64,000 bases of DNA, taken from Thermococcus thioreducens (lineage in GTDB: Archaea > Methanobacteriota_B > Thermococci > Thermococcales > Thermococcaceae). How positions within the stretch are numbered: the first letter of the stretch is position 1; each line of letters opens with the position of its first letter. The DNA lies in assembly GCF_002214545.1 (NCBI RefSeq), contig NZ_CP015105.1, positions 124,001-188,000 of the forward strand, read 5' to 3'. The position numbers and the translations under genes are program-made. The notes beneath the pieces are model-generated. The model did not search any database and had not been told where the DNA came from. It saw only the letters and a program-made list of their open reading frames with translations. Below, piece after piece: positions 48,005 through 57,289 of this stretch.

Positions 48005-48330
48005 AGGCGAGGGGGTTGGGGGCCCTCGGGGTGCTCCCGAGGAAGTTCCGCCCACCGCACCGGGGCCGCGGTGCCGCAAGGCACCTCCCGAGAGGGAGGG
48101 CAACGGCGCAGAAACGACACGTCCCGGCGGATATGGGGATGAAAGCGGCGAAGGGCCCGGCGACGGTGCCCGAGCTAACCCGCAGACGACCCGTCGGGGA
48201 GCGGTGAAACGGCCGTCCCGCGGGGTGCAAGGCCGAGGGAGGGGCGATGAGTTCCCGGTGGGAGCCCCGTGGTAGGCCGCTCAGTCGAATGCTCCCTTGA
48301 GACAGAAGGCGGGCTACGACCCCCTCGCCT
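48005..48330 (+). ncRNA. rnpB: RNase P RNA (archaeal type A)
   Basis: Catalytic RNA that trims the 5' leader of tRNA precursors. Boundaries come from helix P1: AGGCGAGGGGG (48005-48015) pairs perfectly with CCCCCTCGCCT (48320-48330). Universal blocks are present: GAGGAAGTTCCGCCC (48039-48053), CAGAAACGACAC (48109-48120), GGATGAAAGCGGCGAA near 48135, and GACAGAAGGCGGGC (48301-48314). P4 forms between CCGCC (48048-48052) and GGCGG (48308-48312). GC content is far above the neighbouring genes, as expected for a structural RNA in a hyperthermophile. Protein-like open frames here are spurious. Confidence 0.95.
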
Positions 48331-55189: not shown

Positions 55190-56380
55190 ATGGCGAGGGT
55201 AATCGTTGACGCTCAGGCCGCGAGAGCCATAGGAAAGGGCGCGATGATAGTCTTCAAAAAGGGTGTCGTGAGAACGGAGGGTCAGTTCGAGCCCGGCGAT
55301 ATTGTTGAGGTCTACACCAGAGGAGGCAAGTTCCTTGGAAAGGGCTTTGTCAATCCCAACTCCAACATCATGATCAGGCTCGTAACCAAGGATCGCGATA
55401 CGGAGATAAACAAGGAGCTCTTCCGCGAAAGGATCAGGAAGGCCAACGAGTACCGCAAGAAGGTCCTCGGCTACGACAGGGCCTACCGCATGGTGTACGG
55501 CGAGGCGGATTATCTGCCTGGCCTTATAGTTGACCGCTTCAACGAGATAGCCTCCCTTCAAATTTCGAGCGTAGGGATGGAGAGGTTCAAGCTCGACCTT
55601 GCCGAGGCAATAATGGAGGCCGAGCCGGAAATCGAGACGGTCTTCGAGAAAAACACCGGACGCTCAAGGAGGAGGGAAGGTTTGCCCGAGATAGAGAGGG
55701 TTTTGCTCGGCAAGGAGAAGTACCGGACGGTGATCGAGGAAGGCAAAGCCAAGTTCATCGTTGATATGCGCGGCCAGAAGACCGGCTTCTTCCTTGACCA
55801 GAGGGAGAACAGGATAGCCCTTGAGAAGTACGTCAAGCCGGGAATGAGGGTCCTCGATGTTTTCACATACACCGGCGGCTTTGCTATACACGCGGCTGTT
55901 GCTGGAGCTGATGAGGTCGTCGCCGTCGACAAGTCTCCCTGGGCCATCAACATGGTGAAGGAGAACGCCAAGCTCAATGGCGTAGAGGACAGGATGAAGT
56001 ACGTCGTTGGCTCGGCCTTCCCGGTGATGGAGGAGATGATAAAGAGGGGTGAGAAGTTTGATATCGTTATCCTCGATCCGCCGGCCTTTGTCCAGCACGA
56101 GAAGGACTTAAAGCGGGGTCTCCGCGCTTACTTCAACGTGAACTACGCTGGCCTACAGCTCGTGAAGGAGGGGGGAATACTCGTCACTGCCTCCTGCTCC
56201 CAGCACGTCGACATGCAGACCTTTAAGGATATGGTCATAGCGGCTGCTGCAAAGGCGGGCAAGTTCCTCAGGCTCCTCGAACCGTATAGGACGCAGGCGC
56301 CGGATCACCCGATACTCATGGCCTCGAAAGATACGGAGTACCTCAAGGCGCTCTTCCTCTACGTTGAGGACATGAAATGA
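55190..56380 (+). CDS. RlmI-like class I RNA methyltransferase with PUA domain
   Basis: 396 residues. N-terminal PUA domain (1-75), central EEHEE-like domain (about 80-190) and a Rossmann methyltransferase domain with LDVFTYTGGFAIHAA (SAM motif I), VDKSPWAI, LDPPAFV (motif IV) and TASCSQHV containing the cysteine used by cytosine-C5 methyltransferases. Matches the COG1092 family (bacterial RlmI, Pyrococcus PH1915). Target RNA not known here. GGTGGTGAGAG precedes the ATG. A structured RNA element begins right after its stop codon. Confidence 0.88.
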   Translation: MARVIVDAQAARAIGKGAMIVFKKGVVRTEGQFEPGDIVEVYTRGGKFLGKGFVNPNSNIMIRLVTKDRDTEINKELFRERIRKANEYRKKVLGYDRAYRMVYGEADYLPGLIVDRFNEIASLQISSVGMERFKLDLAEAIMEAEPEIETVFEKNTGRSRRREGLPEIERVLLGKEKYRTVIEEGKAKFIVDMRGQKTGFFLDQRENRIALEKYVKPGMRVLDVFTYTGGFAIHAAVAGADEVVAVDKSPWAINMVKENAKLNGVEDRMKYVVGSAFPVMEEMIKRGEKFDIVILDPPAFVQHEKDLKRGLRAYFNVNYAGLQLVKEGGILVTASCSQHVDMQTFKDMVIAAAAKAGKFLRLLEPYRTQAPDHPILMASKDTEYLKALFLYVEDMK

Positions 56381-56461
56381 GTTTGGGGGACGATGAGGAG
56401 AAAGCACCTCCTCTGAAACCGGCGTGAGTGATGAGACGCCCACGGTCCGAGTCCCTAAACA
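56381..56461 (+). ncRNA. Candidate structured small RNA, C/D-box-like
   Basis: Starts right after the RlmI-like stop. Outer stem: GTTTGGGGG (56381-56389) with TCCCTAAAC (56452-56460), nine pairs including two G-U. Inside: C-like box ACGATGA (56390-56396), CTGA as D' (56413-56416), GTGATGA as C' (56428-56434), CCGA as D-like box (56447-56450). The C'-to-D distance is exactly 12 bases as in archaeal C/D guides; C-to-D' is 16. Competing hairpins GAGGAG/CTCCTC (56395-56413) and GGCGT/ACGCC (56421-56440) are possible. Two boxes deviate by one base from consensus, so the class is uncertain. Confidence 0.5.
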
Positions 56462-56492
56462 GGTCGCTCTGCCGACCGAAATCCTTTTTTAT
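56462..56492 (+). terminator. Hairpin plus T-run after the candidate RNA
   Basis: GGTCG (56462-56466) and CGACC (56473-56477) form a small stem followed by ATCCTTTTTTATTTG. Suits transcript ending after the structured RNA, between two convergent genes. Confidence 0.5.
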
Positions 56493-56545
56493 TTGATCGT
56501 TTGAACGACCAAAATCGCAGAAGTTATGGTCATTACAACGACCGC

Positions 56546-57289
56546 TTACAGCCTCAGTATCAGACTGTGCCTCCACCGGGTTCCGACCTTGAACTTCACG
56601 TCCTTGACTTGGTAGCCCAGCTCTTCTCCCTTTTCCGTTATGGCATTTATTAGCGGCTCCTTGTCCGGAAGAAAGAGGGCGACTTTTCCATCGGGCTTCA
56701 GATATTCCATCGCCTCCTCAATGAGCATCACCGAGAAGGCCTCTCCGTATTTACCCCCTCCAACGCCTTCCCTCTCCGTCAGAACTCCCTTTGTAGGCCT
56801 CTCGTAGTAGGGCGGAGCGGAGAAGATTACGTCGAACTTTTCCTCTTCAGGTATCACTCCCTGGATTATTCCACCGCTGCTCTTGATTAACCTGACTCTT
56901 CTCCCGTTCCGCTCGATGTTCTTCATGGCATAATTGAAGAACTCGTCGTCAAGTTCCGTCGCGGTAACGTCGCACTTGAAGAGCTTCTCAGCAATGAGGG
57001 CCATCATCGCGGTGTGCCCGGTTCCAATCTCAAGAACCTTCTCGCCGTCGCGGAGAAACGTCTTCAGGAAGAGGTAGCGCGAGATGGGGGTGGTCACCAG
57101 CCCGTGCGGGTGGTACTCTATCTCCAGCCCGAAGAGGGCCTTCGCTATCGCCCTGTTGTAGAGTATTCTTGCCTCCCTGTTCGAGAAGTCGAGCCTTCCG
57201 CGCTCGTCTAAGTATTTTTCCAGCCCGGGGAAAAGTCTAACGGCCTCCCTAACTGGCAGTCCCAGCTTTCCGTCCTTCCATGCGTGCAT
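56546..57289 (-). CDS. RlmF/METTL16-like methyltransferase
   Basis: 247 residues. SAM motif I VLEIGTGHTAMMALIAEK, acidic TELDDEFF, and a catalytic SAPPYY in the position of the (N/D/S)PP(Y/F) motif of N6-adenine methyltransferases. The start segment (RLDFSNREARILYNRAI) and GLVTTPISRYLFL follow the archaeal RlmF-related group. Probably methylates adenine in an RNA; target unknown. No clear ribosome binding site upstream of ATG 57289. Confidence 0.8.
   Translation of the reverse strand: MHAWKDGKLGLPVREAVRLFPGLEKYLDERGRLDFSNREARILYNRAIAKALFGLEIEYHPHGLVTTPISRYLFLKTFLRDGEKVLEIGTGHTAMMALIAEKLFKCDVTATELDDEFFNYAMKNIERNGRRVRLIKSSGGIIQGVIPEEEKFDVIFSAPPYYERPTKGVLTEREGVGGGKYGEAFSVMLIEEAMEYLKPDGKVALFLPDKEPLINAITEKGEELGYQVKDVKFKVGTRWRHSLILRL

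Follow-up and report, generated by a model that had tools for sequence, protein, structure and literature searches.

The RF01128 family and archaeal C/D box sRNAs

The Rfam family RF01128, named sR43 and carrying the description "Small nucleolar RNA sR42", is one of the catalogued families of archaeal C/D box sRNAs. In such RNAs the N-plus-five rule places the methylated base (PMC4644070), the targets of double guides are usually closely spaced (PMC7994747), and turnover of guides has been described (PMC4644070, PMC7994747). A 71-nt RNA of T. kodakarensis, ncRNA03 (1593064–1593134; PMC9014305 Table 1), gave 403 circular reads in the wild type versus 1 in an RNA ligase knockout (PMC9014305); Table 1 of that study lists neither an alias nor a start site for it (PMC9014305).

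The window analysed here is a 64,000-nt stretch of the Thermococcus thioreducens genome, and all positions below refer to it unless marked otherwise. A scan of the whole window against Rfam returned two matches only, an archaeal RNase P RNA and RF01128. The RNase P RNA gene (RF00373) lies at 48007–48328 and scores 183 bits. RF01128 matches 56388–56452 at 70 bits, where the cut-off is 45 (E 1.5e-14), and related C/D families score 11–17 bits on the sRNA, all below their own Rfam cut-offs. The element at 56387–56455 is an ordinary member of the catalogued RF01128 family of archaeal C/D box sRNAs.

The original prediction was of a structured RNA with C/D-like boxes, possibly not a classical guide, for which an Infernal-type family search was proposed. 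That search gives the RF01128 match above the curated cut-off, and the C/D-like character is borne out by the 70-bit score and by family-wide conservation, which together put it well outside what chance would produce. Because the sRNA belongs to a named Rfam C/D family, the C/D-type reading is firmer than first thought, and the probability that this is a classical double-guide C/D box sRNA, representing RF01128 in Thermococcus, is put at about 0.93.

Organisation of the locus

The locus comprises the following parts, all on the plus strand.

55190–56380, +, gene for an RlmI-like protein with PUA and SAM methyltransferase domains; its stop codon abuts the sRNA
56387–56455, +, C/D box sRNA body (RF01128, sR43/sR42), ~69–71 nt including the closing stem
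56387–56391, +, 5' arm of the closing stem, GGGAC; its partner is GTCCC at 56451–56455
56390–56396, +, box C, ACGATGA; nearly all homologs read GATGA or AATGA here
56397–56412, +, D' guide, GGAGAAAGCACCTCCT; the nine bases at its 3' end pair with 16S AGGAGGUGC, E. coli 1046–1054
56413–56416, +, box D', CTGA; CTGA in 85/88 homologs
56417–56427, +, D'–C' spacer, AACCGGCGTGA; 11 nt, partly complementary to the D guide
56428–56434, +, box C', GTGATGA
56435–56446, +, D guide, GACGCCCACGGT; pairs with 16S ACCGUG(A)GGCGUC, E. coli 1074–1086
56447–56450, +, box D, CCGA; CNGA in all parsed homologs
~56462–56492, +, terminator-like element: a 5-bp hairpin, GGTCG/CGACC, and then a T6 run, from sequence and folding

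The ends of the sRNA body were set by the covarying GGGAC/GTCCC stem and by the length of the circular ortholog from T. kodakarensis (71 nt; PMC9014305). Beyond exceeding the covariance model cut-off, the copy has boxes C, D', C' and D in order with their conserved GA elements, a C'–D spacing of ~12 nt and a longer C–D' spacing of 16 nt. All four boxes, the 12-base C'-to-D spacing, and the 5-bp hairpin with its T-run at ~56462–56492 were found where they had been predicted.

The sRNA does lie directly behind an RlmI-like methyltransferase gene, as had been pointed out, with RlmI assigned at superfamily level; the best NCBIfam match of the protein is 23S rRNA C1962 methyltransferase, with an E of 3e-92, a match that stays below the equivalog cut-off. 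Among homologs the sRNA usually sits between convergent genes for an RlmI-like and a second (Methyltransf_10-like) methyltransferase. In 42/87 homologs the end of the RlmI-like gene lies immediately upstream in the same orientation, and in 15/87 it lies downstream on the opposite strand, so that the sRNA gene has changed strand relative to its neighbours. Eight loci read MTase> sRNA> <RlmI, against RlmI> sRNA> <MTase in the window (55190–57289). The closing stem is an inverted repeat, a feature that could allow a strand flip.

A second RF01128 match of interest lies at 1593071–1593134, minus strand, of a genome that we take to be T. kodakarensis KOD1. These coordinates coincide with those of ncRNA03, from which it follows that the ortholog in T. 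kodakarensis is both expressed and circularised; the tie between this published circular RNA and a known C/D family is drawn here. The lack of a listed start site would fit processing from an upstream transcript. By this route the sRNA would probably be released by processing of transcripts that read through the 3' end of the RlmI-like gene. Its C/D and C'/D' motifs would be expected to bind L7Ae, Nop5 and fibrillarin, and the RNA ligase Rnl may close part of the sRNA into circles by way of the closing stem.

Conservation and the closing stem

RF01128 matches were found in 89/94 Thermococcaceae genomes, including 73/74 of the good ones, and in all six genera; there were none in the 21 other genomes of the same phylum that were searched. 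One complete Thermococcus genome seems to be without the sRNA, its only GCACCTCCNCTGA match having no C/D context and reading as protein-coding. Most of the records returned by a pattern scan of named genomes were metagenome-assembled Thermococcus; a few bacterial matches were due to chance. Boxes, guides and spacing were parsed in 88 homologs. Within the D' guide, GCACCTCC is invariant (88/88), and the ACGCCCACG core of the D guide is present in 72/88, two one-base variants counted. The C'–D distance is 12 nt in 67/88 homologs, a pattern that includes the window copy, and the D'–C' spacer ranges from 3 to 13 nt, with 3 nt in several Pyrococcus copies; the greater length in the window copy, 11 nt, counts against the double-guide reading.

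The terminal stem joining C and D, GGGAC/GTCCC, is paired in 91% of cells, with 37 distinct stem pairs. Shuffling the partners gives 57% paired, with a maximum of 71% in 1000 shuffles, and sliding the stem by one gives 44–51%. Compensatory pair types occur in all five stem columns, for example CCGC/GCGG, GGCA/TGCC and AGCG/CGCT. The 9-bp stem originally drawn between 56381–56389 and 56452–56460 does exist and includes two G-U pairs; the covarying stem, however, lies one register off. The original prediction had named unconserved stems or boxes in relatives as evidence against itself; these relatives keep the boxes and show covariation in the closing stem.

Likeness to the anti-Shine-Dalgarno end

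The D' segment was noted at the outset to end like the 3' end of archaeal 16S rRNA, and was proposed to pair with GGAGGTG ribosome sites. The identity holds: CACCTCCT equals the last 8 bases of the 16S rRNA of the same genome, which ends ...GATCACCTCCT, and a scan of both strands of 688 kb gave 37 GGAGGTG-plus-start arrangements. A non-guide regulatory RNA, in which CACCTCCT pairs with mRNA Shine-Dalgarno sites and blocks translation, is nevertheless extremely unlikely. All four C/D boxes and a second guide are conserved alongside the segment; the last base of the match, base 8, varies among the 88 homologs (T in 39, A in 47, C in 2); and changes adjoining the match extend the pairing to 16S AGGAGGUGCAU, which occurs once in the 688 kb scanned. 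The D' guide looks like an anti-Shine-Dalgarno end because the 16S rRNA itself contains AGGAGGUGC. With an internal 16S target and a variable last base, pairing of the D' segment with Shine-Dalgarno (GGAGGTG) sites of mRNAs is not needed. A spurious lead, that of an anti-Shine-Dalgarno RNA, is removed in this way and given a plain cause.

Predicted 16S targets

Both guides of the sRNA are complementary to rRNA and place the predicted target base 5 nt before box D' or D, with moderate statistical support. The D' guide, GCACCTCCT, forms 9/9 pairs adjoining D' with 16S AGGAGGUGC (local 989–997), and the D guide, GACGCC-CACGGT, forms 6+6 pairs with 16S ACCGUG-A-GGCGUC (local 1017–1029) around one bulged A. 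Both sites are invariant, lying in a 41-base 16S block that is identical in 60/60 genomes where the pattern search found the block. By the N-plus-five rule the predicted methyl sites are local G993 (D') and U1021 (D), which align with E. coli G1050 and U1078 and lie 28 nt apart in the 16S head. As judged from this complementarity, the sRNA most likely guides ribose methylation of these two neighbouring 16S sites, the D' and D guides directing 2'-O-methylation of G1050 and U1078, respectively. Two testable 16S methylation sites are hereby named; the literature searched yielded no paper on 2'-O-methylation mapping at G1050/U1078 in Thermococcales.

For each guide the best duplex is the one in 16S, that of the D guide (-21.8 kcal/mol) being the best in 16S and 23S; shuffled guides did as well by duplex energy in 13/120 and 37/120 cases, so that the energies alone are weak to modest evidence. 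Shuffled guide pairs had both best matches within 60 nt in only 3/120. The two bases upstream of GCACC in the D' guide changed from AA to AT or GT in 13 homologs versus 2 other changes, and each AT or GT change lengthens the D' duplex with 16S AGGAGGUGCAU; the 13 homologs are related and do not represent 13 independent events.

Counter-evidence comes from the bulged A after six pairs in the D duplex, which is unusual for a guide. It lends some weight to the alternative of a C/D box sRNA in which one guide or both act elsewhere (the D guide at 23S local 1462, for example, or a guide on an mRNA or tRNA) and the two 16S predictions are partly wrong, the more so as the next-best D duplex, at 23S local 1462, is nearly as stable (-20.3 against -21.8 kcal/mol, 1.5 kcal/mol worse). 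This alternative is unlikely, though far from negligible, as at the 16S site all 12 nt of the conserved D guide take part in the pairing and the two 16S targets lie close together, the usual arrangement in double guides (PMC7994747).

Elsewhere in the genome, the complement of the D' guide has one perfect 13-nt match besides the sRNA, and an exact 12-nt complement of the D guide lies antisense inside a gene whose product is PLP-type acyltransferase-like; both were taken as chance, as were G-U-containing complements of the D guide, which occur at about the control frequency. Neither 16S nor 23S has a match to GAGAAAG, the 5' half of the D' guide, even with G-U pairs, and this too counts against the guide assignment. 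This segment (56398–56404) is nearly invariant across the family despite having no rRNA match.

Spacer pairing and replacement of the D guide

The doubt originally expressed about a classical guide came from competing hairpins, and it finds no support, as these hairpins are not conserved: they are absent or different in most homologs. Folding stability is unremarkable for the 112-nt stretch (z -1.6) and averages a z of -0.4 over 69 distinct homolog sequences.

One of these hairpins pairs the D guide with the D'–C' spacer (~-10 kcal/mol) in the window and in many Thermococcus copies. Sixteen genomes keep the D' guide but carry an unrelated sequence, mostly of 10 nt, in place of the D guide; 6/16 of these have an ACCCG/CGGGT spacer pairing, and most of the others retain a shorter or altered one. 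That the D' guide hairpin and the spacer:D-guide hairpin form a functional fold, such as a switch, would accord with this persistence. Such a fold is very unlikely, however, given that Pyrococcus and several other copies cannot form the spacer pairing, that the mean fold z over the 69 sequences is -0.4, and that against shuffled spacers the pairing has a mean z of -0.4, or -1.0 for long spacers. Other C/D sRNAs in 280 kb of the same genome were sought as a control for the spacer hairpin; one was found, too few to serve.

There is a slim chance that in Thermococcus the long D'–C' spacer mimics the 16S target (ACCGGCGU versus ACCGUGAGGCGUC), masks the D guide and is kept despite replacement, the D guide being self-regulated or its half made into a structural hairpin. 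For the double-guide sRNA as such, the replacements offer a clean natural case in which one guide is lost while the partner guide and the rRNA site are retained. The 16S site is intact in the nine replaced-D genomes in which the block was located; a search of the 16 genomes did not turn up the old D guide at another place, and the replacement guides have no good target in the rRNA of T. thioreducens. Eleven of the 16 also have a T before GCACC, giving a longer D' pairing with 16S.

Comparison with known systems

The window copy matches RF01128 over its full length and is like it in both guides, all boxes, size and spacing. Its differences are a D'–C' spacer 8 bases longer than that of several Pyrococcus members, and CCGA as box D. 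The T. kodakarensis ncRNA03 occupies the same place, directly behind the RlmI-like gene, whereas its box C' is GTGCTGA in contrast to the GTGATGA of the window. With snoPyro_CD (RF00095), sR17 (RF01144) and sR30 (RF01134) the sRNA shares the general C/D architecture, but the guides differ and these families reach only 16–17 bits, below their gathering scores.
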